From Brachionus manjavacas (lineage: Eukaryota > Rotifera > Eurotatoria > Ploima > Brachionidae): DNA of 64,000 nucleotides. The stretch's first letter is position 1, and each line of letters begins with the position of its first letter. Under the pieces are notes generated by a model. It saw only the letters and a program-made list of their open reading frames with translations, was not told the DNA's origin and made no database searches. This document shows positions 6,401-29,263 of this stretch, one piece after another. The DNA lies in NCBI GenBank assembly GCA_019054805.1, contig JAHQIY010000008.1:2837501-2901500 (forward strand), read 5' to 3'. The translations under genes were made by a program, and so were the position numbers.

Positions 6401-9400
6401 TTCATCGATTGGGAAATGGTCACTAGTCATATTTTAACTTTTTAGGACATTAAAATCGGAAATTTTGTCAATAAATGAGGAAAAAACTAAAAAAAAGCTC
6501 GAGAATTTCAAAATAGTTCTTTTTAAAAATATTAAAGAAAGGGCGCTTATCATTAATTACTGAAAAGTCTAACTCATTGATTATCCTTTCCAAAATCTTA
6601 CCGTTTTCATATCAGTGATTTTTTTCTTTAAAAATGTCTAACTATACCCACTGGGTATACTTGAATTTTTCCTTGTTTTAATAAAAATTAAAAATAATCT
6701 TCACCACTTATTTTGGTTATTGATAAAACACGGATCATCTGTTTTTTACTAAGACACGGACCACCCCTTAAAGCACCAAGGAATAATAAGATAAACTCCG
6801 TTCAAGTGTTTTCTATGACAAAATTTTATTTTTCCGGTGGTCTGTGCAGCAAAAAGTCCTACAGCTTAGGTCTCAATTTCGCGTGAAAGAGCGTAAAATT
6901 TTTCCCGAAAAAACATAAGTTTTTTCTGAAATAACTTTAGCTCGGTAAGGAAACAAATAAATGAACAAATAAATCGGAAGAATTCCGTACTTATCCTAGA
7001 AATCTAAAGGAAATGTAGAAAATTTATAATCGAAGGTGATTTGAATGCGAACACTTTAAGTTTAGATTGTTTGAGGGAAAATGAGAATGGATTAATCTTA
7101 TAGAAAATTATCAACAAACTCAAACTCTCAGTAATTAATGATAAAACACCAATATTTAATAGATTTAACACAGAATATTAATAATATTATAAAATTAAGA
7201 TTAAATTTTAAAATGCTTTGTGTAATAAAACTCTCAAGCTGAGAAGTTATTTCATCTGACTCAGTTAAATTTAAAAGAATATTTTTTTTATTATATGACT
7301 AATCAAATTTTTTGAATGCAACATCCTATGGTAAAAAAAAATAATAAATTTTTAATTGAATTTTATTAATAATCCTTAGCTTCAATAAAAATATTTTTCA
7401 TTATAGTTTTTAATTTGAATATCTAACTTTTAGTTAATTTCTAAATATCGATCAAAGAACAATGAAATTATTGCATTTTTAACAGCATTATTGTCATTTA
7501 CGAATGTAAAATTTCTTTGATAATAGCGTAAAACCTTGCAAACTACCCCATGAAGTTCTGGAGTAAAATGATTGAGTAAAAAAGTTAATAAATATTTTTT
7601 ATTTTTTTGTAAATAAATAAAATTTAACTCGGGATAATATCAAAATTCTTTGTTTTCGTTTGTGGGCTTATATAAAAAAAATCGGTAATTTTTGATTGAA
7701 CTTTTAGTATTTTGATTTCTAAAATTAAACAAAAAAATCTTTAAAAATATTGGAAAGTAAATAAGCTTATAAAGCAATTAGTGTATTTAAAATTTTAAAT
7801 AACTTTTTTCATTTTAAAAATCTTGTTTGACCTTATAATTTTTCAAAAATTCTAACATGTTTGATTTGGAAAGTGAATCCGATGATAGTTTTATTCAAAA
7901 AATATATACTTAAGCAATTGCTATTATTTTAAAAGATAAAGTTGTTTATATTTTTACAATACATGTCACAGTCAATTTGGAAAATGACTTGGAAAATGAT
8001 AAAATTTTCCTTTTTTCTTTGACCAGGCATTTTAAAAATTCAAAAAAAAAAAAACAAAGTAACTAATTTTTAATGTTCTTACCAAAAGTTAATTAACAAA
8101 GTTTAAATTTTTTCGCCGTAAAAATTTTTTTCATTTAAAAAAAAAATTGTTAAAATTTAAATTTTACAAAAATTAAACTATTTTATCTAATTTTCATTTT
8201 TTCATTTCGAGCCAAACTTAAATTCAGCTTTTCGAAAAAAGCATCTCATAGTGCACAATCCACAGCAAAAAAAACTTTAGAAATCCATAATTATGCCCAA
8301 AAGATGACACTCGAACAGCCTTATGTCAATAAACAATTTATTTTCTCTGTAATTTTATCATTTGCCAAGTCATTTTACAAAATTACACATTTTAAAAATT
8401 GACAGTGACATATTTAAAAGTATTTTTAATCTGAATAAATTTATTTTATACAATAAAATTTATTTAAAAAAAATTTTAATTTAAAATTTCATTTTAATTT
8501 AAATTTGATTAAATGTTATATTAAGTTTGAAAAAACAATCTTCAAATTTACTTCTCTTTCAATGATTCGAAGTATTTTTCAAATTATTTTTAAAGACTCG
8601 ACGTTTAATTCTCAAAGATTTCTAAAAAATAATTCATATTTGTTAGAATTAGCTATAGTAAAATAATTTCAATTATATTTACGGAAATAAAAATTGTTTT
8701 TTAGATCACGGCCAAAGCTTTAATCCAAATTACCAGTATCAACAGGACGATGACTGCCTTCCCGACGATTGTAGATCATATTGTAAGTAAATGTTTATAA
8801 ATTCTTATGAACTTCTTTAATAAATTCTCATTGATTCAATATTCGCCCCATTAGGAGCATTTCTGTTATATAAATTTTTTTGGAAAAGTTTTTTGAAAAA
8901 TTTTTGGCGCCGCTGAACTCGTTTCTCACTAGGCTCCCATAATAATGAAAGTCTATGAATTCCATATTTTGGATTAATAATCGCATGCTCAAGTCATATT
9001 AGTTGTCTTCTGATTAGTTTGGTCGGCCGTTTTTATTGTTACAAAATGAAGAATCTAACAGAAAATTTAATTAGTGATATTTTCACACAAAATAAAATAG
9101 TTTATTTATAAACAAAAAAATTGAACATTATTTTTTAAGTATTTTATTATTTGCTTTTATCTAATCATAGGTAACCTATTATTCTTAAATTTAATTTTTC
9201 TTCTTTTGATTAATTTTTTATAAACAGGCAATAAAAAAGATTTTTAAGTATTTTCAATTAAAAATATAAAATCCGGAATTCGAGCAAAAAAAAATTTAAA
9301 GTCCGAACTTGAATTTGTGTCTTTTGCACAACGCTGATTTGAAGAAATAAATAATTAAATTTAACATTGAATTTTTCTTTGATAATGTGCTTCTTAAGTA

Positions 9401-12400
9401 TAATTTAAAATCAAAAATTACTTCCTTTTAATGATAACTTTTGAGCTTGGAAATTTAAATTTGATCATAAACTTAAATTTTCCACAAATAAATAAACAAT
9501 TTTTTAAAATGATGTTACATAATTTCGGAAAAATTGATCTTTTATTCGATTCAATTTTAGATTATATTTTTATTATTAACTGTATCATTTAAAATTAAAA
9601 AAATTACAAGTAATAGCAATTCGATCAATAATGAAAATAAAATTTTATACTTCCTACAACATTGTATATCATAAAGCTTTTATTAAACTTAAATTAATGT
9701 TTTTTATTTTTCATTGAACTTCATTTCTTTTGAAGAGCAAATTACACAAGTAGTCAAGATCACCTGAACAAAAATTTAGTAGAGGAAGGGTCGAACAAAA
9801 AAATTAATGAAACAATGCAAAGTCTTTAAAGTCAAAATTCTAAATTCTAAAAAAATTTTAGCGACAAGTTCGGAAACTTAATTTTAATTATTAAAATATT
9901 TTAATCTAGATTTTCGGTTAATTTTTAATTCTGAGGTTTATTTAACTTAAAATTTTTTATAATTATTTTTACTTTGTGATTTTATTTTAATAAAGAGGCG
10001 CTCTAGCTCGCTTCAGAAAAACAAATGAGATAAAAAGTTTATACTTTATTACAAAAAAAATTTTTTTCAAGGGAAAAAAATTCATTCTTTTATTTTAAAA
10101 AATCATGATATTAAAATTTACTGTGAAATTTAATTTTATATAAAAAAAATAAGTTTACAAAATATTGTGAAAGAGTGTTTATAGGCCAAGATAAGATTCC
10201 AGTATTAGGCTCTTGGAAGATTACTTACCTGGCTCGATGAAAAGAGGCATTGTCTTGTTGGAAAATGGAAGCCTCATCTTTTCTTAGCATATTTATTGAT
10301 TAAAGAAAGTTTTTTCCTAAAATATCAAAATATCTGTGAGAATTTAGCCTTTCATCAAATATAGAAAAAATTTTTGACCATAATAACTCTTATTGCATCA
10401 AATTCCAATAGAACCAATTTCTTGCATTTGACAATTTCCAGTTACGTTCTATGATATTTGATGGTCAAATAATTATATAAGTCTTAACCAAACAGGCTAA
10501 TTGACAATCATCATTCTAAGTTAAAATATCAAGTCTTCCAGATCCTGGGAGATGTTCTTATGAATTTTTTAATTATATCGATTAATAAAAAATTATTAAT
10601 TTATATATGATATGAATCTATTAAGTCATTCCCTATTTTTGGATATGACTTTTCATTTTGCCGAAAATAGCACTTATTCTGTCCTCTTAAATTTAAAAAG
10701 GACAAAGATTAGGAATATGGTTAGGCATTTTTGTATCAAAAGCAATTTAAATTGAGTCAGAATTACATTTAATCACAAAAAGGTTTTAATAAAACTTTTA
10801 ACTGTTTAAAATCAAGGACTAAATGGAAAATTTATATGCTATTTTGTCCTATTCTATTACTATTCAAACCCAAACAAACAAATAAAAATTAATTTTTTCT
10901 TAATTTTTTCACAATTATTTATTTTATTTATTTGTTTTCTGTACCGAGCAGAAGCTCCTTCAGATTAAAAAAAAAATTTCAAAATAAAATAAAGTTAAAT
11001 AAGATAGAATAGGTTTGGTTCAATCGAACGGCTAGTCGCCTTAACCTTATAGGCCGATTGAACAGGTTTATTTTCCAAAAAAAAATAATAATATAATATT
11101 TATAAAAAGAATTAAAATACCAGAGAAAAAATTTCATAAATATACTTCAAATCAATAACAAAAGTTCTTATAATTTAAATCAAATTTTTTAAATTGATTC
11201 AAAAATTCCAAAAATATTCTATTCACATTGTTATTAATTCTTATAGTATACAAGTTGAAATTGAGTGAAAGGTCCTTTTTAAGAAAATGATTAATCAATT
11301 TAGGGAAAAAGCTCTGGAATGTATCTTCCATTCTGTCGTTAAATTTTCCTTTCGATGCTATCATATATTCAAATTTGTTCCGAAGATTATGCGGCTTTGA
11401 GAGCGAAATATTTTGGTACAAAAACGATCTGAGCTGTTTTGGACTCTCTCTATTGTTCAAAACTTTGTAAATAAATGATGAAAGTCGTTTAATGATTCGA
11501 TGTTGGAAACAGTCTAGATTAAAACTGTTTAGAAGATTGTTCAACGAGTTGTAGTCACTCGAGTTTAGTACCTTGAGTCTAATATTTAAGAGTTTGTACA
11601 GGCAATAATTGTAATAATTGGCAAGTTTTTGAATTGTCTTCTTTGGAAAATATATTACTAACGATAAACAATAGTCAAAGTGTGGCAGAATAAATGTTTT
11701 TAAAAATTGAACTTTGACATTTTTTGACAAGTAAAACAGTCGATCGATTGAATATAATCTTTTGTTGATTGCTTGCTTTATTTCACTAACATGCTTTAAA
11801 AAATTTAATTTCTTGTCCAAATTTATCCCTAGGATTTTAAAATGATCTACAATTTCAATACGGTTATCTTCTACTTGGATAAACTCCGGAATATGAATAT
11901 TTTTTTTGTTCGTAATCACCATGATTTTCGTTTTGGTCCAGTTTATCCCAAGCCTATTTAAACTACACCATTTTAAGAGCTGTTTGATAGAGTTCTTAAA
12001 GTTCTGAACAAGCTCATTAAAACAGTTGCCAATTTTTAGGAGGGTTGTATCATCAGCGAATAATTTTGTAATAAAGCTTTCACAATAAAATACAATATCG
12101 TCGATAAAAATTATAAACAAAAGTGGTCCCAATACACTCCCTTGAGGTACACCCAGCTCTAATTTGTGCGAGCTTGAGAGATGGTCATCTATCCTCACGA
12201 TTTGTCTCCTATTGGAAAAATAGTTTTTTAGCAGGAGAATTGAATTTACATCAAAACCATATCTTTTAAGCTTAATTAGTAGCAACTTCGAGTCGACTGA
12301 GTCAAACGCCTTTTTAAAGTCGATGAATAAAAGTAGACCGATAAGCCTCTTGCTGCGTATTTCGTTCAGCTGTGAGAGAAGTTCATGGAGAGCTGTCTCA

Positions 12401-15400
12401 CAGCTGTGGTTATTTCTAAATCCATGTTGACTACTCGAAAACAACTAATTTGTGTTAAAATAAGTTAGGATTTGATTTGAGAGCATTCTCTCAAAAAGTT
12501 TAGCAATTGGTGGTAGCACAGATATACTTCTATAGTTGTTAATATCATCTGGTTCGCCTTTGTTTTTGTAGAGAGATGTAACAACAGCCGTCTTCCATTC
12601 TGCAGGCATCGTACACGTCAGAATAGAAAAGTTAAAAAGATAGGCTATCACGGTGTTCAATTTTATGAGCGATGTTTTAATAGTCTTTGTCGGAATGCCA
12701 CTGACACCTGGACCGCTGGTTGTTGGTATGCTAGATAAGAGTTTTTCAATTTCGCTAGCTGTTGTAAAGCTGAATTTGAATGCTCCTTCCTGAATTTTAA
12801 TTTGTTTGTCATCACAAGCTCGCTTGAGTTGTTCGTCCACAAAATTTTCGCATTCAGATAATGAATTGTTCGATTCCGATGACAAAGATGTAAAATAAGC
12901 ATTAAATATTTCACTAATTTCTGTTTTGTCAGTTATGACTTGCTCGTTTTTCTTAATTTGAAAAGTTGATTGTTCTAAGTTTTTATTCGATTTTATTTTT
13001 ATTTTCGATGAATATAGCTCCCAAAACTTTTTATTACTCTTAAAATCGCTCATTGATTTATTTTTAAAATACTCTATTATTTTTTCTTCATTAAGATCTT
13101 TGTATGCTCTTTTAAGATAATAATAGATCATTTTGTCAAAACTCGATTTAGATTCGGAAAGTTATTTGTACGCTATATCGCGGTTTTTTTTTAGGCCAAT
13201 TAACTCATCGTCGAACCAGGGAAAGTAATTCGATTGTCTTACAGTGATTTTTCGAAGTGGTGAGATTTGGTCAATAATTTTCATCAATTCATTTTTAAAA
13301 AAACACCATTTGTCTTCAATGTTGTTAAAGAGATGCATCCTTTTAAATTCTATGCAATCAATTGATTCATATATTTTTGTCAAATTCTTTTTTGAAAGAT
13401 TTCGGCAAGTAATTGTTTTTGGACGATTATCTGGTTTAGCTAACAACAATTCAGCAGTTATAAAACAATGATCGCTAAAGGGGCATTTCACCACGGATGT
13501 TTCATTAACAAGATCTCCATTGTGCAAAAATATATCAATGAGAGTTTCTGACTGTTTGGTAACCTTATACTTGCTAAAGTGTCTAGTGGCCACTCTTGTT
13601 GGACTGGTGATGAAGTTGATGAATCCATTATTATCAATAAAGTTTTTGAAATTTGTTTGAACATCGCTAAGGAGGTTCATGGTCAAGTCGCCGATTATAA
13701 ATAGTGGCTCCTCCAAGTTTAAGGAGTGAATAAAATCTTCTAATCTCTCCAGGAAAACGTTTTCATTGAGCACGGGAGGACGATAACAGTGAATAAAGTT
13801 GTATTTTTGGGATTTAATTTTTAATTGGATATAAATGAGTTCTGATTTTTCTAAAAGCACTGATCTTGTGTTTGAAAGGCCATTTTTGATAAAAATTAGT
13901 AAACCACCACCATGCCTATTTCTATCAAGGCGAATCTTTGTATAAAACTTATTATTAAAAAATGAGTTAGGTATCGAATCATCCAGTTTAGTCTCACTAA
14001 AGAATAAAAAATCAAAATTTTTTGTATTGAGAATCTCATCAATTTCTTGTAAGTTGTCCATAATCGAATTGACATTTAGATGAAGGATTTGGAAATTTTT
14101 TACGTTTTTAGCGGATTTGGTTAGCTCGTCAATAAAACTATAGTCAGATGATGAGACCTCTTTTGGTTTTAGTCAATGTTGAGAAAAAGAACAGTTCTCA
14201 AGAAAATTTTCATCAATTGAAAATTTTTTTATCTCATCAGCCATTATTTCCCGCATGTTTTGGATATTTGTTTGATTAAAATCGAATTCTCGTTTAAAAG
14301 CAAGATATTTAGCATATAAACAAATAAAAACTCCACAATCAACCGAATTTCCTGTTTGCTTCGGATATTTTAAATCAGTTTCTATCTTCCAATCATTTAC
14401 TCCTTTCAACTTAATAAACAAATTGCTGAGGTTGAATGATATCGTACGAATTAATTCAAAGTTTGGTTTAAGAATTGAGTCAAGATTGTAAATCACCTTA
14501 TTTTCTAAGTCAAAGACTAGTAACGACCAATGATTCAAATTTAAATTAATTGGTAGAAATAGTAAGTAACTGAGGGTATTGTTAAGGTCTGTGCATAATT
14601 TTTTAATATCACGAGTTTTAGATGAAATAAGTTTTCCTACCAAGAGCGAGTCGAGACAAACACATTTTTTTTGCGCTGAATTGCAAATCAAGTTAAGATA
14701 AAAATTTACTATTTTGTCATTTAATTTCGATACGGAAAGTAAGATCATTATGTCACTTTTACAAATGTCAAAACCATAAGCTTTAACAATTAAAATATCG
14801 TTACGATCTAATTCTTCATTATTCTCATTTAAAATAAGCTCTTGAGAGGAGTAAACTTTAAATGTCCAGTATACCCGTTTTGATTGACTAGGAATGTTCT
14901 TTTTTTTTAAAATCGATTTGCTCGGTGTCGGGCTAGTCGGACTCAGTGCCGAACAATCATTTTCGTTCGATTTAGGATCGATTGGTTCGAGGTAAAAACG
15001 ATTATTTTGGCTCAGTGTTGAGCAAGTAGGACTCCGTTCCTGATATATGTTGATGGCGTTCGTTTTCCAGTTGGAGTTCGAAAATAGCGCTTTATCAGAC
15101 TCGTTTGTTGGTGTTGGGGTCAGTTTTGATGATTGTTGATCAAATGAGGCCATGATCACTCTTCTGGGAAATTTTCGTTGCTATTGACGATGAACCATGG
15201 ACAAGACCAGCTTCAACTCACCGTTCCTAATTCCCCAGAATCTCTTTTTTCCATCGTTACAAATCTTGAATTTAAGTGTTCGTCCGTTTATTACATCTGA
15301 TCCTGTCAATTCATTGTTCTTTCGATCACGTTCCTGTCGTAGTTTGCGATTTGCTACCCTCTCACTAGGCGTTAAATCCTCATTCACGTAAACATTGTTG

Positions 15401-17567
15401 TATTCAGGTTTCTCACGTAAAATCTTTGATTTTCGAAGCATATCTATTTTTGCCTCGGTTGACTCCATTTCAACAACTAACAGAACTTGATCGTTCTTCA
15501 CAACACTTGATACAGCATTTATACCATTAGACCTACTTTTGATTCTTCTTGCGGTTTTGATTCTGGTTCCGGCTATACCTATATTTGAGGCCAAATTTTT
15601 TACGAAATCAGCTTCACAATTGGGCTCAATGTGAGTTGCGGACGGTATAGCTATAACGACATTATTCATCCGTTCATCTTTCTTCCTCATTTCGGTAGCC
15701 ATAGTCGTCATCATTGCTACTGCGTTCTCATCCTTGTGCGCCATTCCAGCTGTTATTTTTGACCAGTTGAGCTTAGTGACTGATGCCGATTCTTTTGATC
15801 TCATTTCAAGTGTCTCGACTCGAACTCGGAGCTCAGCAATTTCTGACTTGAGAGCGCTGACGCTCTCATCTTTCTCGGCCAAACACTTTCGGTATAAACC
15901 ATCAATCGATCTAACGACGGCTAAAAGGTCCACTTCTCTGGCGTAAGGATTTCCCGTTCTACCAACCGGCTTTGTGGTTCCAAATTTAGCGCATAGAGTG
16001 TCCAGTAGGAGACTCCATTCATCCGAATTTGATACAGGATCAATCGAGTCCATATATTTTAAACATTATTTATGTTAAACAAAACTAAGTAGCTTTAAGT
16101 AGTGTTAAAAGACTCAATAGAAGAATTTGTTGCACTATAGCCTGGAGTGGAATTATACGCTTTCCACTAAGTGTATCTAATTTCTTAGATGATTTTCTAA
16201 ATATAAGTTATAAAACTTTAAAGAATCTAAAATATCAAAATATCTGTGAGAATTTAGCCTTTCATCAAATATAGAAAAAAATTTTTGACCATAATAACTC
16301 TTATTGCATCAAATTCCAATAGAACCAATTTCTTGCATTTGACAATTTCCAGTTACGTTCTATGATATTTGATGGTCAAATAATTATATAAGTCTTAACC
16401 AAACAGGCTAATTGACAATCATCATTCTAAGTTAAAATATCAAGTCTTCCAGATCCTGGGAGATGTTCTTATGAATTTTTTTAATTATATCGATTAATAA
16501 AAAATTATTAATTTATATATGATATGAATCTATTAAGTCATTCCCTATTTTTGGATATGACTTTTCATTTTGCCGAAAATAGCACTTATTCTGTCCTCTT
16601 AAATTTAAAAAGGACAAAGATTAGGAATATGGTTAGGCATTTTTGTATCAAAAGCAATTTAAATTGAGTCAGAATTACATTTAATCATAAAAAGGTTTTA
16701 ATAAAACTTTTAACTGTCTAAAATCAAGGACTAAATGGAAAATTTATATGCTATTTGTCCTATTCTATTACTATTCAAACCCTAACAAACAAATAAAAAT
16801 TAATTTTTTCTTAATTTTTTCACAATTATTTATTTTATTTATTTGTTTTCTGTACCGAGCAGAAGCTCCTTCAGATTAAAAAAAAAAAAATCAAAATAAA
16901 ATAAAGTTAAATAAGATAGAATAAAAATTGAAAAAAATAAAATGTAATAAAATGGTTTAAAATAGAGGAAAATTAATGAAATTGAACTAGAGAGTTAAAA
17001 GATACATTTTTTAGAAAAATTTGATTGTTCAGGGAAAAAAGAAGAAATTGCAAGGTAGCAATTACACTTAATCACAATATTGTAAAAAATATTTTATATG
17101 TTAAAAATTCACACTATTGTCTAAGTTATTATGATAGTTTTTTTAAAGGGTGCGGTCCATCATTGATTTGGATAGCCTTTTCGGTTGTTATTTTAATTGC
17201 TGCCGTTGTCGGGGGCTTTTTTTTCAACAAACATTTTACCGAGAAATCGACTATTCTAAAAAATGAAAATCAAATTTTGAATCAAAAATTAACATTTGAG
17301 CAGACTGAAAATGATAAATTAAAAAAGAAATTCTCAGAAATGAAGATCGAAAAAGAGGATTTGAGCGAAAAACTGTCAGAAATGAAGATCGAAAAAGAGG
17401 ATTTGAGCGAAAAACTGTCAAAAATTAAGACCGAAAATGAGGAATTGAACGAAAAATTGTCAGAAATGAAGATCGAAATAGAGGAATTAAGCGAAAAACT
17501 GTCAGAAATGAAGACCGAAAACGAAAAGCTTTACCAAAAAATATCTTTTTTGGACATGGAAAAATGA
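3134..17567 (+). CDS. Coiled-coil membrane protein, copy A (exons 3134-3173, 8705-8782, 17149-17567)
   Basis: I do not recognise this family. Exon 1 starts at an ATG preceded in frame by TAA and ends at a GTAAG donor. Exon 2 lies between TTTTTTAG and GTAAGT. Exon 3 starts after AAAG at 17148, in the next full unit. All phases match (1, 1, 2). The ~178-residue product has a Gln/Asn-rich N-terminus, an acidic Cys segment (DDDCLPDDCRSYWC), one hydrophobic segment (about residues 45-65), then charged 14-residue repeats predicted to form a coiled coil (five repeats here). Intron 2 contains the whole LINE of unit 2. One extra A near 17560 ends the frame about 14 residues earlier than in copy B. The joining is inferred; a transcript could test it. 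Confidence 0.55.
3327..4036 (-). mobile_element. 5'-truncated LINE fragment, 3' end (unit 1)
   Basis: The minus strand encodes the end of a non-LTR reverse-transcriptase protein. It includes the typical AHIRPILFYGVE and LLKMIIGIPTRC motifs, one in-frame TAA at about 3671, and a coherent C-terminus ending near 3507. A 3' UTR with a GC-rich end (GGGGCCGGAGAGCGG) and a poly(A) follow, seen as poly(T) on the plus strand at 3327-3344. The 5' side stops in a low-complexity AAAGGA stretch. It is of a different family from the LINE in unit 2. Non-functional. Confidence 0.75.
4090..4405 (-). mobile_element. Decayed LINE reverse-transcriptase fragment (unit 1)
   Basis: In broken minus-strand frames one can read WNPYLRRDMDTLEKAQRRVTR and, further along the plus strand, a piece resembling the fingers region (IIEFLKQNSLL then GFRKRG). 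Both are typical of CR1/Jockey-like non-LTR elements, with stops and gaps between them. It belongs to another element than the fragment at 3327-4036. Confidence 0.6.
7973..8411. mobile_element. Inverted-repeat element (MITE-like), unit 1
   Basis: The ends are inverted: ATGTCACAGTCAATTT on the left, and on the complement of the right end ATGTCACTGTCAATTT. Both ends then share AATGACTTGG and AATGATAAAATT further in, with different spacing. There is no reading frame inside. The target duplication is unclear. The repeat copy in unit 3 is 24343-24791. Confidence 0.55.
10229..10460 (-). pseudogene. Tc1/mariner transposase relic (unit 1)
   Basis: In broken minus-strand frames one reads RLNSHRYFDILGKNFL followed by EASIFQQDNASFHRAR. 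These resemble the segment before the second catalytic Asp of Tc1/mariner transposases and the QQDNAPxHxA motif itself. Stops and a small gap interrupt it and the rest of the protein is missing. The relic straddles the border of the ~696-bp junction repeat. Confidence 0.6.
11152..12444 (-). pseudogene. LINE ORF2, RT palm, thumb and C-terminus
   Basis: 430 residues in frame after the TAG. They include HGFRNNHSCETAL, LFIDFKKAFDSVD (first catalytic Asp), GVPQGSVLGPLLF, KLFADDTTLL (the catalytic Asp pair) and the thumb. A long basic C-terminus follows without RNase H or a CCHC knuckle. All RT catalytic residues are kept, so the damage is limited to the stops. Stop codon at 11152-11154. Confidence 0.8.
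12445..13161 (-). pseudogene. LINE ORF2, linker and RT fingers
   Basis: Continues in the same frame after the TAA. It holds the variable linker, the entry motif SGPGVSGIPTKTIK, then MPAEWKTAVVTSLYKNKG and YRSISVLPPIAKLFERML, which are RT motifs 0 and 1 of non-LTR elements. A TAG (12445-12447) interrupts it between FNTN and LFSSSQHGF. A change from AAG would explain it. Confidence 0.7.
13162..14172 (-). pseudogene. LINE ORF2, endonuclease part
   Basis: Exonuclease-endonuclease-phosphatase domain in the same frame as the protease part. It opens with FQILHLNVNSI at about 14090, then FFSETKLDD (catalytic Glu), FIHCYRPP, GDLTMNL, TLIDIFL and FSDHCFI (final Asp-His). In the GDxN motif the Asn is replaced by Thr, one base change from Asn, which should weaken or abolish nicking. 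The frame is closed by TAA at 13162-13164, after a basic linker typical of the endonuclease-RT junction. Confidence 0.75.
14173..15153 (-). CDS. LINE ORF2, N-terminal part: Ulp1/SENP-like cysteine protease (family C48)
   Basis: From ATG 15153 (an in-frame GTG six bases upstream is less likely) the frame gives ~326 residues. The first ~100 are Ser/Thr/Pro-rich and of low complexity. The rest is an Ulp1-like fold: LNHWSLLVFDLE with His ~208, VIYNLDS with Asp ~225, then QTGNSVDCGVF with Gln ~266 and Cys ~273. This is the complete His-Asp-Gln-Cys set in the usual spacing. Members of the family cleave SUMO, NEDD8 or similar isopeptides; what the element uses it for is unknown. The frame ends in TGA (14173-14175) and continues without shift into the endonuclease, so the protease was probably the N-terminal domain of ORF2. 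Confidence 0.75.
   Translation of the reverse strand: MASFDQQSSKLTPTPTNESDKALFSNSNWKTNAINIYQERSPTCSTLSQNNRFYLEPIDPKSNENDCSALSPTSPTPSKSILKKKNIPSQSKRVYWTFKVYSSQELILNENNEELDRNDILIVKAYGFDICKSDIMILLSVSKLNDKIVNFYLNLICNSAQKKCVCLDSLLVGKLISSKTRDIKKLCTDLNNTLSYLLFLPINLNLNHWSLLVFDLENKVIYNLDSILKPNFELIRTISFNLSNLFIKLKGVNDWKIETDLKYPKQTGNSVDCGVFICLYAKYLAFKREFDFNQTNIQNMREIMADEIKKFSIDENFLENCSFSQH
15181..16053 (-). CDS. LINE ORF1 protein
   Basis: Intact 290-residue frame starting at the ATG at 16053. Residues about 55-85 are rich in charged and hydrophobic residues and look like a short coiled coil (ALKSEIAELRVRVETLEM). The C-terminal half carries the pattern common to LINE ORF1 proteins of this group, with NVYVNEDLTPSERVANRKL followed by a basic stretch and a WGIRNGEL ending. 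By family, such proteins bind the element RNA and help form the ribonucleoprotein. I see no zinc-knuckle. A decayed ORF1 of the same type can be read at about 39790-40070, which supports the assignment. Confidence 0.75.
   Translation of the reverse strand: MDSIDPVSNSDEWSLLLDTLCAKFGTTKPVGRTGNPYAREVDLLAVVRSIDGLYRKCLAEKDESVSALKSEIAELRVRVETLEMRSKESASVTKLNWSKITAGMAHKDENAVAMMTTMATEMRKKDERMNNVVIAIPSATHIEPNCEADFVKNLASNIGIAGTRIKTARRIKSRSNGINAVSSVVKNDQVLLVVEMESTEAKIDMLRKSKILREKPEYNNVYVNEDLTPSERVANRKLRQERDRKNNELTGSDVINGRTLKFKICNDGKKRFWGIRNGELKLVLSMVHRQ
16227..16370 (-). pseudogene. Tc1/mariner transposase relic, truncated (unit 2)
   Basis: Part of the relic described at 10229-10460. It is cut at 16227, where the LINE-side sequence begins, so the QQDNA motif is absent here. 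Confidence 0.5.
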
Positions 17568-18246
17568 TAACATTTTAAATCATATTATTAGTAAAAATTA
17601 AAACTTCTGAATAAAATTTATCTTATAACTAAAATTTGAATATTTAGAAAAGACAATCTTTTAATAAAAATTTTATTGGAATTTCAAAATCAAAATTTTT
17701 TAATTTAATCACTTTTATTTAAATTTAATCCAAATCTCTCTCCGAGCTGATTTATCTCCTCAATTTATAACCTAAAATGTACTTGTTTAGCTTGGTTTTA
17801 CGACAAAAGAGGTGTGAGCTAATGATTGGTAAATAAATATAAATTACTTGGTTTGGATTAATTGTATTTTCAATACATTATTGAAATTTTAAATTTCATA
17901 AGATTAGGAAAAATCTGTTGAAATGGTTAATCAAATTATTAGGTTAATCAAATGGTTAATCAAATGATAATTTGATAATTCAACTTATCAAATTATCATT
18001 TTAACCCTAATAATTTGTTTTATATGTTGTGGATTTTACAGAAAATTGCAGAATTTCTGCAGAGCTAGAATAAATGTGTACAATTGTTTTGTTTTTAAAA
18101 CCATTTTTATACAATAAGAACCGAATATTGGGTCAAATTTGACCTAATTTTGTTAATAAACTTCGAAGCTCACCCTAAATTATTTTCGGAACACGATTAA
18201 ATTTGTCTCTTTTTTTAATCCCTAAAAATTAACTTATCTTATACAT

Positions 18247-18706
18247 TAGCCCTACGCCACGTGGCTTTTACGTAATATTACGTCAAATTACGTGAATTTA
18301 CGTAATCACTGTATTTAATAAATTTTTTTTAGTGATTTGACATTTTTATTTGGCTCCGTTATACGAGATACCTTTTTTTATACTGGTAAAAAAAGCCATT
18401 TTACGAAAATTTACTTAAAATGAATTTTTTGAAAATTTTAGTTAGAAAAGTGAGAATATTCAAATTTTCATAAAAATCGTCTAAAATTTTGAATTTTCTA
18501 CTATTTTTTGGCCGTTTTTCATTTTACTGTATCTTTGGTAATTTTACTTAAGATTAAGTATATTTACGCTAATAAACGTTAATTAAAGTTATTTTACTAT
18601 TTTATCTTTACGTAAGTTTTCGTAAACTTACTTTTTTTTTCGTCAAATTACGTAAATTCACCTATTTTGGCGTAAATTTACATAAAATCCACGTGGCGTA
18701 GCGCTA
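18247..18706. mobile_element. MITE with CACGTGG terminal inverted repeats (unit 3)
   Basis: Copy of the 460-bp element at 1863-2322, with the same ends and flanking TA. It multiplied by duplication of the unit, not by independent transposition. Confidence 0.75.
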
Positions 18707-22500: not shown

Positions 22501-25500
22501 TTAATAGTGTCTTTTTCCCATCTTCTGGATGAAGTCAAACCAATTTTGATCCCAAACTTTTTAGCTCAAATGTAATGTAAAGTAAGGAATGCTTTTATGT
22601 GAAGCAGGCATGACTTTTTCTCTAATTTTATCATTTAGACTATCTATTAAGAGTAAACTTTTAGTGATATTAATTATATGAGCATTTAAAATATCTCCAA
22701 ATAATTGCCAGTCCTCAACTCTATTTCTTATAATAAAACTTTTAGCTTTTGATTTTTTTGATGGTCCATAAAATTAGATTCATCGATTGGGAAATGGTCA
22801 CTAGTCATATTTTAACTTTTTAGGACATTAAAATCGGAAATTTTGTCAATAAATGAGGAAAAAACTAAAAAAAAGCTCGAGAATTTCAAAATAGTTCTTT
22901 TTAAAAATATTAAAGAAAGGGCGCTTATCATTAATTACTGAAAAGTCTAACTCATTGATTATCCTTTCCAAAATCTTACCGTTTTCATATCAGTGATTTT
23001 TTCTTTAAAAATGTCTAACTATACCCACTGGGTATACTTGAATTTTTCCTTGTTTTAATAAAAATTAAAAATAATCTTCACCACTTATTTTGGTTATTGA
23101 TAAAACACGGATCATCTGTTTTTTACTAAGACACGGACCACCCCTTAAAGCACCAAGGAATAATAAGATAAACTCCATTCAAGTGTTTTCTATGACAAAA
23201 TTTTATTTTTCCGGTGGTCTGTGCAGCAAAAAGTCCTACAGCTTAGGTCTCAATTTCGCGTGAAAGAGCGTAAAATTTTTTCCCGAAAAAACATAAGTTT
23301 TTTCTGAAATAACTTTAGCTCGGTAAGGAAACAAATAAATGAACAAATAAATCGGAAGAATTCCGTACTTATCCTAGAAATCTAAAGGAAATGTAGAAAA
23401 TTTATAATCGAAGGTGATTTGAATGCGAACACTTTAAGTTTAGATTGTTTGAGGGAAAATGAGAATGGATTAATCTTATAGAAAATTATCAACAAACTCA
23501 AACTCTCAGTAATTAATGATAAAACACCAATATTTAATAGATTTAACACAGAATATTAATAATATTATAAAATTAAGATTAAATTTTAAAATGCTTTGTG
23601 TAATAAAACTCTCAAGCTGAGAAGTTATTTCATCTGACTCAGTTAAATTTAAAAAAGAATATTTTTTTTATTATATGACTAATCAAATTTTTTGAATGCA
23701 ACATCCTATGGTAAAAAAAAATAATAAATTTTTAATTGAATTTTATTAATAATCCTTAGCTTCAATAAAAATATTTTTCATTATAGTTTTTAATTTGAAT
23801 ATCTAACTTTTAGTTAATTTCTAAATATCGATCAAAGAACAATGAAATTATTGCATTTTTAACAGCATTATTGTCATTTACGAATGTAAAATTTCTTTGA
23901 TAATAGCGTAAAACCTTGCAAACTACCCCATGAAGTTCTGGAGTAAAATGATTGAGTAAAAAGTTAATAAATATTTTTTATTTTTTTGTAAATAAATAAA
24001 ATTTAACTCGGGATAATATCAAAATTCTTTGTTTTCGTTTGTGGGCTTATATAAAAAAAATCGGTAATTTTTGATTGAACTTTTAGTATTTTGATTTCTA
24101 AAATTAAACAAAAAAATCTTTAAAAATATTGGAAAGTAAATAAGCTTATAAAGCAATTAGTGTATTTAAAATTTTAAATAACTTTTTTCATTTTAAAAAT
24201 CTTGTTTGACCTTATAATTTTTCAAAAATTCTAACATGTTTGATTTGGAAAGTGAATCCGATGATAGTTTTATTCAAAAAATATATACTTAAGCAATTGC
24301 TATTATTTTAAAAGATAAAGTTGTTTATATTTTTTACAATACATGTCACAGTCAATTTGGAAAATGACTTGGAAAATGATAAAATTTTCCTTTTTTCTTT
24401 GACCAGGCATTTTAAAAATTCAAAAAAAAAAAAACAAAGTAACTAATTTTTAATGTTCTTACCAAAAGTTAATTAACAAAGTTTAAATTTTTTCGCCGTA
24501 AAAATTTTTTTCATTTAAAAAAAAAATTGTTAAAATTTAAATTTTACAAAAATTAAACTATTTTATCTAATTTTCATTTTTTCATTTCGAGCCAAACTTA
24601 AATTCAGCTTTTCGAAAAAAGCATCTCATAGTGCACAATCCACAGCAAAAAAAACTTTAGAAATCCATAATTATGCCCAAAAGATGACACTCGAACAGCC
24701 TTATGTCAATAAACAATTTATTTTCTCTGTAATTTTATCATTTGCCAAGTCATTTTACAAAATTACACATTTTAAAAATTGACAGTGACATATTTAAAAG
24801 TATTTTAATCTGAATAAATTTATTTTATACAATAAAATTTATTTAAAAAAAATTTTAATTTAAAATTTCATTTTAATTTAAATTTGATTAAATGTTATAT
24901 TAAGTTTGAAAAAACAATCTTCAAATTTACTTCTCTTTCAATGATTCGAAGTATTTTTCAAATTATTTTTAAAGACTCGACGTTTAATTCTCAAAGATTT
25001 CTAAAAAATAATTCATATTTGTTAGAATTAGCTATAGTAAAATAATTTCAATTATATTTACGGAAATAAAAATTGTTTTTTAGATCAGGGCCAAAGCTTT
25101 AATCCAAATTACCAGTATCAACAGGACGATGACTGCCTTCCCGACGATTGTAGATCATATTGTAAGTAAATGTTTATAAATTCTTATGAACTTCTTTAAT
25201 AAATTCTCATTGATTCAATATTCGCCCCATTAGGAGCATTTCTGTTATATAAATTTTTTGGAAAAGTTTTTTGAAAAATTTTTGGCGCCGCTGAACTCGT
25301 TTCTCACTAGGCTCCCATAATAATGAAAGTCTATGAATTCCATATTTTGGATTAATAATCGCATGCTCAAGTCATATTAGTTGTCTTCTGATTAGTTTGG
25401 TCGGCCGTTTTTATTGTTACATAATGAAGAATCTAACAGAAAATTTAATTAGTGATATTTTCACACAAAATAAAATAGTTTATTTATAAACAAAAAAATT

Positions 25501-28148
25501 GAACATTATTTTTTAGATATTTTATTATTTGCTTTTATCTAATCATAGGTAACCTATTATTCTTAAATTTAATTTTTCTTCTTTTGATTAATTTTTTATA
25601 AACAGGCAATAAAAAGATTTTTAAGTATTTTCAATTAAAAATATAAAATCCGGAATTCGAGCAAAAAAAAATTTAAAGTCCGAACTTGAATTTGTGTCTT
25701 TTGCACAACGCTGATTTGAAGAAATAAATAATTAAATTTAACATTGAATTTTTCTTTGATAATGTGCTTCTTAAGTATAATTTAAAATCAAAAATTACTT
25801 CCTTTTAATGATAACTTTTGAGCTTGGAAATTTAAATTTGATCATAAACTTAAATTTTCCACAAATAAATAAACAATTTTTGAAAATGATGTTACATAAT
25901 TTCGGAAAAATTGATCTTTTATTCGATTCAATTTTAGATTATATTTTTATTATTAACTGTATCATTTAAAATTAAAAAAATTACAAGTAATAGCAATTCG
26001 ATCAATAATGAAAATAAAATTTTTTACTTCCTACAACATTGTATATCATAAAGCTTTTATTAAACTTAAATTAATGTTTTTTATTTTTCATTGAACTTCA
26101 TTTCTTTTGAAGAGCAAATTACACAAGTAGTCAAGATCACCTGAACAAAAATTTAGTAGAGGAAGGGTCGAACAAAAAAATTAATTAAACAATGCAAAGT
26201 CTTTAAAGTCAAAATTCTAAATTCTAAAAAAATTTTAGCGACAAGTTCGGAAACTTAATTTTAATTATTAAAATATTTTAATCTAGATTTTCGGTTAATT
26301 TTTAATTCTGAGGTTTATTTAACTTAAAATTTTTTATAATTATTTTTACTTTGTGATTTTATTTTAATAAAGAGGCGCTCTAGCTCGCTTCAGAAAAACA
26401 AATGAGATAAAAAGTTTATACTTTATTACAAAAAAAAAATTTTTTTCAAGGGAAAAAAATTCATTCTTTTATTTTAAAAAATCATGATATTAAAATTTAC
26501 TGTGAAATTTAATTTTATATAAAAAAATAAGTTTACAAAATATTGTGAAAGAGTGTTTATAGGCCAAGATAAGATTCCAGTATTAGGCTCTTGGAAGATT
26601 ACTTACCTGGCTCGATGAAAAGAGGCATTGTCTTGTTGGAAAATGGAAGCCTCATCTTTTCTTAGCATATTTATTGATTAAAGAAAGTTTTTTCCTAAAA
26701 TATCAAAATATCTGTGAGAATTTAGCCTTTCATCAAATATAGAAAAAAATTTTTGACCATAATAACTCTTATTGCAGCAAATTCCAATAGAACCAATTTC
26801 TTGCATTTGACAATTTCCAGTTACGTTCTATGATATTTGATGGTCAAATAATTATATAAGTCTTAACCAAACAGGCTAATTGACAATCATCATTCTAAGT
26901 TAAAATATCAAGTCTTCCAGATCCTGGGAGATGTTCTTATGAATTTTTTTAATTATATCGATTAATAAAAGTTTTTATATATGATATGAATCTATTAAGT
27001 CATTCCCTATTTTTGGATATGACTTTTCATTTTGCCGAAAATAGCACTTATTCTGTCCTCTTAAATTTAAAAAGGACAAAGATTAGGAATATGGTTAGGC
27101 ATTTTTGTATCAAAAGCAATTTAAATTGAGTCAGAATTACATTTAATCACAAAAAGGTTTTAATAAAACTTTTAACTGTTTAAAATCAAGGACTAAATGG
27201 AAAATTTATATGCTATTTTGTCCTATTCTATTACTATTCAAACCCAAACAAACAAATAAAAATTAATTTTTTCTTAATTTTTTCACAATTATTTATTTTA
27301 TTTATTTGTTTTCTGTACCGAGCAAAAGCTCCTTCAGATTAAAAAAAAAAAAAAATCAAAATAAAATAAAGTTAAATAAGATAGAATAGAAATTGAAAAA
27401 AATAAAATGTAATAAAATGGTTTAAAATAGAGGAAAATTAATGAAATAGAACTAGAGAGTTAAAAGATACATTTTTTAGAAAAATTTGATTGTTCAGGGA
27501 AAAAGAAGAAATTGCAAGGTAGCAATTACACTTAATCACAATATTGTAAAAAATATTTTATATGTTAAAAATTCACACTATTGTCTAAGTTATTATGATA
27601 GTTTTTTTAAAGGGTGCGGTCCATCATTGATTTGGATAGCCTTTTCGGTTGTTATTTTAATTGCTGCCGTTGTCGGGGGCTTTTTTTTCAACAAACATTT
27701 TACCGAGAAATCGACTATTCTAAAAAATGAAAATCAAATTTTGAATCAAAAATTAACATCTGAGCAGACTGAAAATGATAAATTAAAAAAGAAATTCTCA
27801 GAAATGAAGATCGAAAAAGAGGATTTGAGCGAAAAACTGTCAAAAATTAAGACCGAAAATGAGGAATTGAACGAAAAATTGTCAGAAATGAAGATCGAAA
27901 AAGAGGAATTAAACGAAAAATTGTCAGAAATGAAGATCGAAAAAGAGGAATTGAACGAAAAATTGTCAGAAATGAAGATCGAAAAAGAGGAATTGAACGA
28001 AAAATTGTCAGAAATGAAGATCGAAATAGAGGAATTAAGCGAAAAACTGTCAGAAATGAAGACCGAAAACGAAAAGCTTTACCAAAAAATATCTTTTTTG
28101 GACATAGAAAATGATAACATTTTAAATCATATTATTAGTAAAAATTAA
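19518..28148 (+). CDS. Coiled-coil membrane protein, copy B (exons 19518-19557, 25084-25161, 27613-28148)
   Basis: This is the best-preserved copy. Exons 1 and 2 lie in unit 3 and exon 3 in unit 4, so the gene exists only across the unit junction. The ~217-residue product runs from the start MNDKQNRQ through the Cys-rich acidic stretch and one membrane segment (LIWIAFSVVILIAAVV) to seven 14-residue repeats of the type SEMKIEKEELNEKL and a short C-terminal tail. There is no signal peptide, so a single-pass anchor with a long cytosolic or lumenal rod is likely. Exon 2 differs from copy A by one substitution (His to Gln) and keeps the frame. Exon 3 is open further upstream (from 27486), so a different acceptor (CAG near 27496) is possible, but only the AAAG acceptor fits the phase of exon 2. 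Confidence 0.6.
19711..20419 (-). mobile_element. 5'-truncated LINE fragment, 3' end (unit 3)
   Basis: Copy of the fragment at 3327-4036, duplicated with the unit. It has the same in-frame TAA and poly(A) end. A few substitutions separate the two, one of them Thr to Met near the C-terminus. Confidence 0.75.
20473..20789 (-). mobile_element. Decayed LINE reverse-transcriptase fragment (unit 3)
   Basis: Copy of the fragment at 4090-4405, duplicated with the unit. Confidence 0.6.
24343..24791. mobile_element. Inverted-repeat element (MITE-like), unit 3
   Basis: Copy of the element at 7973-8411, carried along by the unit duplication. Confidence 0.55.
26608..26839 (-). pseudogene. Tc1/mariner transposase relic (unit 3)
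   Basis: Copy of the relic at 10229-10460, duplicated with the unit. Confidence 0.6.
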
Positions 28149-28490
28149 AACTTCTGAATATAATTTATCTTATAACTAAAATTTGAATATTTAGAACAGA
28201 CAATTTTTTAATAAAAATTTTATTAGAATTTCAAAATCAAAATTTTTTAATTTAATCACTTTTATTTAAATTTAATCCAAATCTCTCTCCGAGCTGATTT
28301 ATCTCCTCAATTTATAACCTAAAATTTACTTGTTTAGCTTGGTTTTACGACAAAAGAGGTGTTAGCTAATGATTGGTAAATAAATATAAATTAATTGGTT
28401 TGGATTAATTGTATTTTCAATACATTATTAAAATGTTAAATTTCATAAGATTAGGAAAAATCTGTTGAAATGGTTAATCGAATTGTTAGG
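26930..28490. repeat. Tandem unit 4 (truncated, first ~1.56 kb)
   Basis: Matches the first 1.56 kb of units 1 and 3, including exon 3 of the coiled-coil gene, then diverges at about 28490. Downstream of the coding region it differs from units 1 and 3 at roughly eight positions in about 340 bases, while units 1 and 3 look identical there. This copy is therefore the outlier, possibly the original locus end. Confidence 0.85.
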
Positions 28491-29263
28491 GTTGTTAATC
28501 AGATTTTACTAAAAATTTGCTGTTTTTTTAACAAATTCTGAAAACAATTGTAATTATTGAGATAATATAAAATAAAACACAATGAATCAAATTTTTACAA
28601 AATATGTATTCTGTTACTCTCTATCAAAATTTATCTAATTTTTATTTTAATATTTATCTACTTTTTAACTTATATCATTTAAACTTTATTTTTTTATTAT
28701 TTTTTATTTTTATTTCATTTTATTTAACTTTATTTTAATTTTTTAATTTTCTTTTTTCTTTTTATATTTAATCTGAAGGAGCTTTAGCCCGGTACAGATA
28801 AATAAATAATAAATAATAACGATTTCTTAATTATGTATTGTTTAAAGTATGGTTTATTATTTTGTCACATTTAAATGAGGAAAATCTAAATATAGATTTA
28901 GAAGTCTCTGACAATTCAAGCTAGAAAAAATCAATGATTATTAATATCAAAAAGTGACAATTAAACTTAATTACAATATCGAAAAACTTAAAAATACAAA
29001 TAAACTCAGATTTGAGTTGAAAGATTAAAATTATACACCTAATAAATTTTTAGCATAATTAGCTTTAAAAATTATAATTCTAAGCATTAATCTTAATCTG
29101 GTTACTATCAATTGAATCTTTCATTATTTTTTCAGAGAAACAATTATTTTAAGTAATATTTTACTATAAATTCTCAAAAGTTTTTTTTACGTTAAAATTT
29201 TCAATTAGTTTTTATAAAACCGAATAAATTTTATTTCTTTTAAAATTTAATTGAAAATTATTT
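28491..29263. other. Intergenic, with a LINE 3' tail relic at ~28640-28805 (+)
   Basis: After the tandem array ends, the sequence is AT-rich. At 28771-28800 the plus strand has ATCTGAAGGAGCTTTAGCCC and GGTACAG, the same LINE end as elsewhere, preceded by a T-rich 3' UTR and followed by AAATAAATAAT. No coding sequence is seen. Confidence 0.6.

Follow-up and report, generated by a model that had tools for sequence, protein, structure and literature searches.

Introduction

Two non-long-terminal-repeat (non-LTR) retrotransposons of nematodes, NeSL and Utopia-1_TSP, both of the restriction-like endonuclease (RLE) type, are described as carrying an Ulp1-like cysteine protease N-terminal to the reverse transcriptase (RT). 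Utopia encodes a single protein, with a restriction-like endonuclease at its C-terminus, and has U2 targets; the target of NeSL is the spliced leader (PMC4640811). Here we describe a long interspersed element (LINE) with a protease of this kind, found in a 64,000-nucleotide stretch of the rotifer Brachionus manjavacas (contig JAHQIY010000008.1, positions 2,837,501 to 2,901,500; hereafter the window). Unlike NeSL and Utopia, the Brachionus family has an endonuclease (EN) resembling apurinic/apyrimidinic endonuclease (APE) between protease and RT, stop codons divide its frame, and the insertion in the window lies in a tandem array of other sequence. Our analysis indicates that it is probably an APE-type LINE in which the first open reading frame (ORF1), protease, EN and RT share one frame, divided by conserved stops in leaky contexts and expressed by readthrough. 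A preliminary description of the window had called a protease in a non-LTR element unusual; this holds, although NeSL and Utopia-1_TSP already carry one.

The family also resembles those members of the CR1/L2/Jockey superfamily that have a type II ORF1, with a predicted coiled coil and an RNA recognition motif (RRM)-like ORF1 followed by APE and then RT; exchange of ORF1 between lineages is described in that superfamily (PMC4120745). The main text of that survey, which covers 448 elements, does not contain the terms 'protease', 'stop codon' or 'readthrough'. Unlike the surveyed elements, the Brachionus family has a protease that closes or follows ORF1, and frames that are joined via conserved stops. 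Gammaretroviruses, alphaviruses and tobamoviruses likewise place an in-frame leaky stop between an abundant upstream product and a scarce polymerase product; UAG CARYYA occurs in tobamoviruses and UGA CUA in some alphaviruses, and UAG-CARYYA and UGA-CUA represent the type I and type II viral readthrough motifs (PMC3542737). For the second protein of LINEs, reviews name reinitiation, frameshifting and 2A-like peptides (PMC5972666, PMC5009743). Among titles and the opening parts of abstracts, a literature search to which Repbase and Dfam did not belong, we found neither an Ulp1-type protease in an APE-type LINE nor a LINE that is normally expressed by readthrough. Within the searched text of rotifer transposable-element papers the term 'protease' is absent, and in that of the Hebe paper so are 'protease' and 'readthrough'.

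Results

An Ulp1/SENP-type protease in a family of APE-type LINEs

The protease lies on the minus strand at 14173-15180 of the window, where PF02902 matches with an E-value of 2.1e-19 and 70.7 bits against a curated cut-off of 20.7, placing it in peptidase family C48. Its closest sequence match in the PDB is SENP1 (E 2.1e-15). An AlphaFold2 model of residues 131-330 (predicted local distance difference test 78-96 by block) has SENP2 as its best fold match in the PDB (E 8.1e-14; template modelling (TM) score by target 0.78), with SENP1 alongside. Profile, fold and an alignment of 13 sequences delimit the catalytic domain at 14224..14802 and bear out the complete His-Asp-Gln-Cys set that had been read from the letters. 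On the 335-residue protease frame these residues are H217 (codon 14530-14532), D234 (14479-14481), Q275 (14356-14358) and C282 (14335-14337); Q275 and C282 are invariant in the alignment and H217 and D234 nearly so. The catalytic residues are kept in the window protease. Catalytic set, fold and sequence are like those of SENP1, SENP2 and Ulp1 (C48); the difference is that this protease is encoded by a retroelement. Tryptophan before the LND motif has a role in gripping Gly-Gly; C4, C18 and C10 retain it, whereas the window, C23 and C31 copies have K, C or R in its place (C-numbers denote contigs of the B. manjavacas genome).

We searched this genome (114 Mb, 61 contigs) and obtained at least 36 protease, 120 EN, 99 RT and 136 ORF1 matches. 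The series protease, EN, RT is found again, closely spaced, at 12 further places (C31_414k, C3_1846k, C8_4203k, C23 twice, C17 twice, C18, C4, C28, C35 and C2_6846k). This recurrence supports the LINE family with a built-in protease that the preliminary description had proposed, and it rules out the alternative given there, a host SENP gene hit by a LINE. The probable host SENP sits elsewhere (C1:4903856, E 2.9e-40). As a separate observation, a second repeated family has an Ulp1-like stretch (C2:9455344, C6:6002323, C6:6010674, C29:559659, C30:124238, C33:39947), which does not adjoin any EN match among the matches listed. At C50:96500-98300 (L094), an Ulp1-like stretch is followed in frame by a Cys/His-rich motif that looks RING-like by eye.

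The window EN scores 24.0 bits with PF14529 and 22.0 bits with PF03372, both slightly under the Pfam cut-offs; both families are assigned to the close relatives P0009 and P0012, and PDB matches of a relative's EN-RT include R2 and L1 ORF2p. With an AP-like endonuclease upstream of a non-LTR RT, the element is of the APE type. In its RT part RVT_1 alone was found, with the APE-like domain upstream, as distinct from the C-terminal restriction-like endonuclease without APE of NeSL and Utopia.

Among database proteins, the closest match found for the window protease is P0001 of Brachionus plicatilis, 96% identical and named 'Sentrin-specific protease', which ends at the same residue as the window protease frame. 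The organisms named among the protease matches (7 + 1) are only B. plicatilis and B. calyciflorus; P0002, P0003, P0006 and P0007 come without an organism. None of 47 EN-RT database matches (the candidates sharing most words were scored) has PF02902, but a fusion would go unseen here because of the stop and the limits on length; insects are the source of the three matches for which an organism is named. The ratio of nonsynonymous to synonymous substitution rates (dN/dS) of the protease is 0.22 between C4 and C18 (199 codons). For EN it is 0.20-0.32 overall, with 0.30 between C4 and C18 (110 codons) and 0.20 between C13 and C17 (290 codons). These comparisons, all made inside a single group, show protease and EN to be under purifying selection.

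A maximum-likelihood tree of EN, middle region and RT was built from copies of this genome only (of 28 sets, 27 from copies and one from the C25 outgroup, two were too short, which left 26). The only deep branches without protease-bearing copies are the C3_5125k subclade and a single C10 copy, which is 5'-truncated; the C9 copy is counted as protease-bearing by its PF02902 match alone, as the family-specific profile did not detect it. A single ancient capture of the protease is likely; it is not proven, because the deepest nodes have support of 52-57. Some copies without a protease start inside EN (C10, C6_3260k, C6_468k, C26, C2_9279k). Two C13 copies start inside the protease, and C31_166k has an internal deletion.

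A conserved UGA between protease and endonuclease

At 22 loci the border between protease and EN can be read on both sides, and each of them has UGA there. It is followed by CUA in 16, CUG in one, UUA in two and CAA in three; the C31_414k context, UGA CAA UUA, conforms to CARYYA. By comparison, UGA makes up 39% of stops in dinucleotide shuffles of the window region. The junctions fall into eight groups: the window; C8_4203k with five near-identical C2 copies; C31_414k with C3_1846k; C31_166k; two C23 copies; C35; C12_747k; and C2_6846k with two C13 copies, C4, C28, C18 and two C17 copies. EN stretches of the eight groups are 34-61% identical to the window EN. C12_747k and the five C2 copies were counted for UGA and stand outside the tree; in the decayed copies C3_1846k, C28, C35 and C2 the place of the border is homologous though one side has lost its frame. 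Excluded were C9 (UGA then UAA, decayed), C15 (border unreadable), C10_3592k (UGA with no EN after it) and the protease matches without an adjoining EN head (L015, L019, L022, L026, L027, L029, L034, L037, L094, L095).

The presence of UGA in every junction makes it a feature of the family and not the decay of a continuous frame. The stops could instead have arisen one by one, as pseudogene mutations of a protease-EN-RT polyprotein whose frame was originally continuous, given that the window copy has two private stops in EN-RT and that many copies are decayed. But the UGA keeps the same place in all 22, including C13_1684k, where EN-RT continues beyond the UGA for 849 codons or more without a stop, and in no examined copy whose border can be read was a sense codon found at that place. 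For the copies at hand decay is thereby refuted, and we give it next to no probability. The preliminary description was right that protease, EN and RT of the window copy share one frame with single stops between; the uninterrupted ancestral frame that it deduced receives no support, as no junction is continuous and EN in six of the eight groups has no AUG ahead of its active site. It is also very improbable that a short intron containing the UGA is spliced out, the assumption behind a B. plicatilis gene model. That prediction, P0008, joins protease to EN by omitting about 19 codons around the stop, and a portion of the protease active-site region is missing from it as well; yet the stop and the next codon are the very part that is conserved.

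At the border, the context of a type I/II readthrough cassette is combined with a continuing frame. In four mammalian genes, UGA-CUAG with no more than a short stretch of 3' sequence drives readthrough, a stem-loop is dispensable for UGA-CUAG in mammals, and CARYYA is active after UGA as after UAG (PMC4132726). In six of the eight groups no AUG occurs between the UGA and the catalytic Asn of EN (HxNxN), which points to readthrough.

ORF1, the UAG stop and the place of the protease

The window ORF1 (15181..16053, minus strand) ends in an in-frame UAG (15181..15183) followed by CAA CGA. A UAG CAR stop was found after ORF1 in 18 of 22 loci examined; one of the others has a sense codon, one has no recognisable motif and two diverge. 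The C4 and C28 protease elements, whose ORF1s are distant, have UAG CAA CUA, which conforms to CARYYA; after it C4 is open for 500 codons to the UGA and C28 for 457 codons into the protease. In C10, C17 and C18 a UGA after ORF1 is common to all three, alongside unshared stops and breaks. The stretch after UAG is open for at least 50 codons in 16 of 17 loci, and letter shuffles stay open so long in at most 5%; we count this long open stretch in favour of a readthrough site.

In C31_414k/C3_1846k, C23 and C8_4203k, ORF1 (or its end), the linker and the protease lie in one frame, and the single stops or frame breaks seen there are not in sister copies where both are readable. The protease therefore goes with ORF1, ahead of the UGA. 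The statement that ORF2 begins with the protease accordingly fails as a general plan; in the window, C4 and C28, UAG CAA separates ORF1 from protease. In gammaretroviruses the protease is located after the stop. In Brachionus, in contrast, it precedes the UGA, in a LINE and not a virus.

The window ORF1 shares 66% amino acid identity with the ORF1 of a protease-free intact LINE (C25:274454), whose ORF2 (1049 aa) is in frame after UAG, and 18-24% with the ORF1s of three protease elements; EN and RT of the window are 25% and 32% identical to their C25 counterparts. By these comparisons the window copy is a chimera, in which ORF1 and the first ~14 codons after it resemble the protease-free C25-type LINE. 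The C25-like ORF1 explains why both stops, UAG CAA and then UGA CUA, are present. A profile search of ORF1 against the PDB gave mostly coiled-coil-type matches (E 0.03 or worse), and a model of modest confidence (predicted TM score 0.44) has a long helix and then a mixed alpha/beta domain.

Several further observations concern the region after ORF1. In C10, C18 and C17 (L025, L028, L030) the linker resembles that of protease-free LINEs of the C3:273902 type while ORF1 differs, a second sign of 5' swapping between LINE families. Some 20-30 nt after UAG (window 15138-15160), a GCCTCATTTGAT-like stretch occurs in the window copy and in protease-free LINEs (L070 and most of L072-L091), and possibly is an RNA signal. 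At C23:741062-744913 (L016), about nt 430-1650, 28-residue tandem repeats (QQQQDTNLAKSSTSNSAESNSKLTKLVV, with slight variation) lie between ORF1 and protease.

Readthrough weighed against reinitiation

Readthrough is inferred here from sequence alone, and several results weigh against it. The 22 copies are not 22 independent cases, because five of them, from C2, are decayed and nearly the same in sequence. In C12_747k the UGA and EN are separated by two additional stops. Folding of ten junctions at three lengths with 100 shuffles revealed no consistent RNA structure 3' of the UGA: z fell below -2 in only 2 of 30 folds (the C4 junction was folded one base out of register), and the stem-loop that many type II viral cases have about 8 nt 3' of the stop was not seen, a difference from the viral systems. 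The first 30 codons after UGA lack clear purifying selection (dN/dS 1.4 and 0.86, few sites), as does the stretch after UAG (0.47 to 4.3 in eight pairs, few sites). Most UAG CAR sites are without a full CARYYA. Finally, the EN-RT subclade C3_5125k/C3_5135k/C12/C22 has no recognisable protease, with about 450-500 bp of other sequence upstream of EN. Copies without the protease had been named beforehand as what would speak against a protease-bearing LINE; this subclade does lack one, and other such copies are 5'-truncated. In the one copy of the C3:273902 type that was examined for a protease none was found.

Start codons also weigh against readthrough, and they bear on termination followed by reinitiation at the UGA (and UAG), with restart nearby as in SART1 or L1, which would yield protease and EN-RT as separate proteins. 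Reinitiation is documented or proposed for some LINEs (PMC5972666). An in-frame AUG lies within 8 codons after UAG in 11 of 17 loci and is missing there in six; in the window it comes at codon 10. An AUG precedes the EN motif in two of the eight groups, at about codon 12 after UGA in C31_414k/C3_1846k and in the EN frame in C35. However, since the remaining six groups have none before the catalytic Asn, they would need a non-AUG start. The position of the window AUG is variable in relatives (I, S, T or M), and reinitiation has no need of a conserved stop identity with a leaky 3' context. We therefore hold reinitiation to be unlikely as a general account, while for the UAG it is possible.

Under readthrough, most ribosomes would stop at the UGA and produce ORF1-protease, or mostly ORF1 alone in elements with UAG after ORF1, and a minority would read through the UGA, making scarce EN-RT as a C-terminal extension of ORF1-protease, comparable to gag:pol readthrough in some retroviruses. 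A wider reading, to which we give an even chance, is that programmed readthrough is the standard coupling of ORF1 to EN-RT in Brachionus LINEs, and that one clade captured a SUMO-protease-like domain with a leaky stop of its own. The result would be a two-stop gag-(UAG)-pro-(UGA)-pol arrangement in a retrotransposon of the target-primed kind, with an evolutionary origin independent of retroviruses.

What the protease may act on

The protease may strip SUMO, or a different ubiquitin-like protein, off ORF1 or off host factors that act in silencing or repair. No Gly-Gly self-cleavage site was found in the linker, the protease or the first 40 residues after UGA in five copies and two partial stretches, and because of this absence from all seven stretches a role in removing SUMO or a similar modifier is somewhat favoured. 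We regard such a deSUMOylation-type role as somewhat more likely than polyprotein cutting at SUMO-like sites, and are less sure of it than of the readthrough. The preliminary description had suggested trimming of the polyprotein; as self-cleavage at SUMO-like Gly-Gly sites, this receives no support.

More broadly, the protease might mainly process an ORF1-protease-EN-RT polyprotein in the manner of a retroviral protease, an idea that concerns its job and is compatible with readthrough. Viral polyproteins are cut by proteases of related folds, poxvirus I7L stands far down among the fold matches of the protease, and readthrough would fuse EN-RT to ORF1-protease, which would be a reason to keep a protease. 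The missing Gly-Gly argues against SUMO-like self-cutting, with another specificity being possible, and C25-type LINEs, in which an in-frame stop of this kind likewise divides ORF1 from ORF2, have no protease at all. On balance, we consider processing a tentative second choice.

The window insertion and its target

The window holds a complete LINE insertion of 5215 bp on the minus strand (11012..16226), with its 5' end at 16226 and its 3' end at 11012. ORF1-like, protease, EN, middle and RT segments form a single minus-strand frame broken by lone stops. Downstream of ORF1, the protease frame, counted from the UAG, covers 14176..15180, and its first ATG, not conserved in relatives, is at 15151-15153. 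The in-frame UGA (14173..14175), followed by CUA A, is the conserved stop before the APE-like EN (13165..14172), where no AUG lies between UGA and the catalytic HLNVN motif. A TAA at 13162 precedes the region between EN and the RT core (12448..13161), and a TAG at 12445 precedes the RT, which runs to the final stop (11152..12444; PF00078 E 3.5e-24). Both stops are absent from a 97.9% identical, 5'-truncated copy at C6:467000-472500 (L069), and are therefore decay of the window copy, which is now broken by private stops in its EN-RT part. The match to the C6 copy ends at window 11012, which sets the 3' end of the element there. A 3'-terminal inverted repeat with 9-bp arms, GTTCAATCG and CGATTGAAC (11018..11063, minus strand), is retained in the C6 copy except for one base.

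Copies of a single sequence flank the element, 695 bp at 10317..11011 on its 3' side and 697 bp at 16227..16923 on its 5' side (689 identities, 5 mismatches, 4 gap columns). A paralogous unit of the tandem array has this sequence a single time, at 26695-27389, and no element in it; comparison of the duplication with this empty site sets both ends of the element. We read the flanking ~695 bp as a probable target-site duplication, far longer than usual; rearrangement of the array is less likely because the borders of the duplication coincide with the ends of the element. The family as a whole has 5'-truncated copies; the duplication is that of the window insertion, the one examined for it. An exceptionally long target-site duplication is indicated for the rotifer R9 element by a title in a reference list. 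An LTR-like reading of the flanks is ruled out, as they are the target in duplicate, which the empty site has in a single copy, and they belong to the array. The array occupies 1-2116, 8000-11012, 16227-18500 and 24380-28504, the LINE being in one unit; the unit has an ORF resembling a membrane or coiled-coil protein (17025-17567) and internal direct repeats.

Discussion

How LINEs make their second protein has been described for few elements. The conserved UGA CUA and UAG CAR stops, together with EN frames that mostly have no start, offer a directly testable case of readthrough, and the family is a natural set of stop contexts for studies of termination in animals. For annotation, our data carry a warning, as P0001 and P0008 are filed as 'Sentrin-specific protease' though they are LINE-type proteins. 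A protease under purifying selection in an APE-type LINE extends the capture of Ulp1 past NeSL and Utopia, and the family may serve as a handle on whether transposons counter SUMO-dependent silencing.

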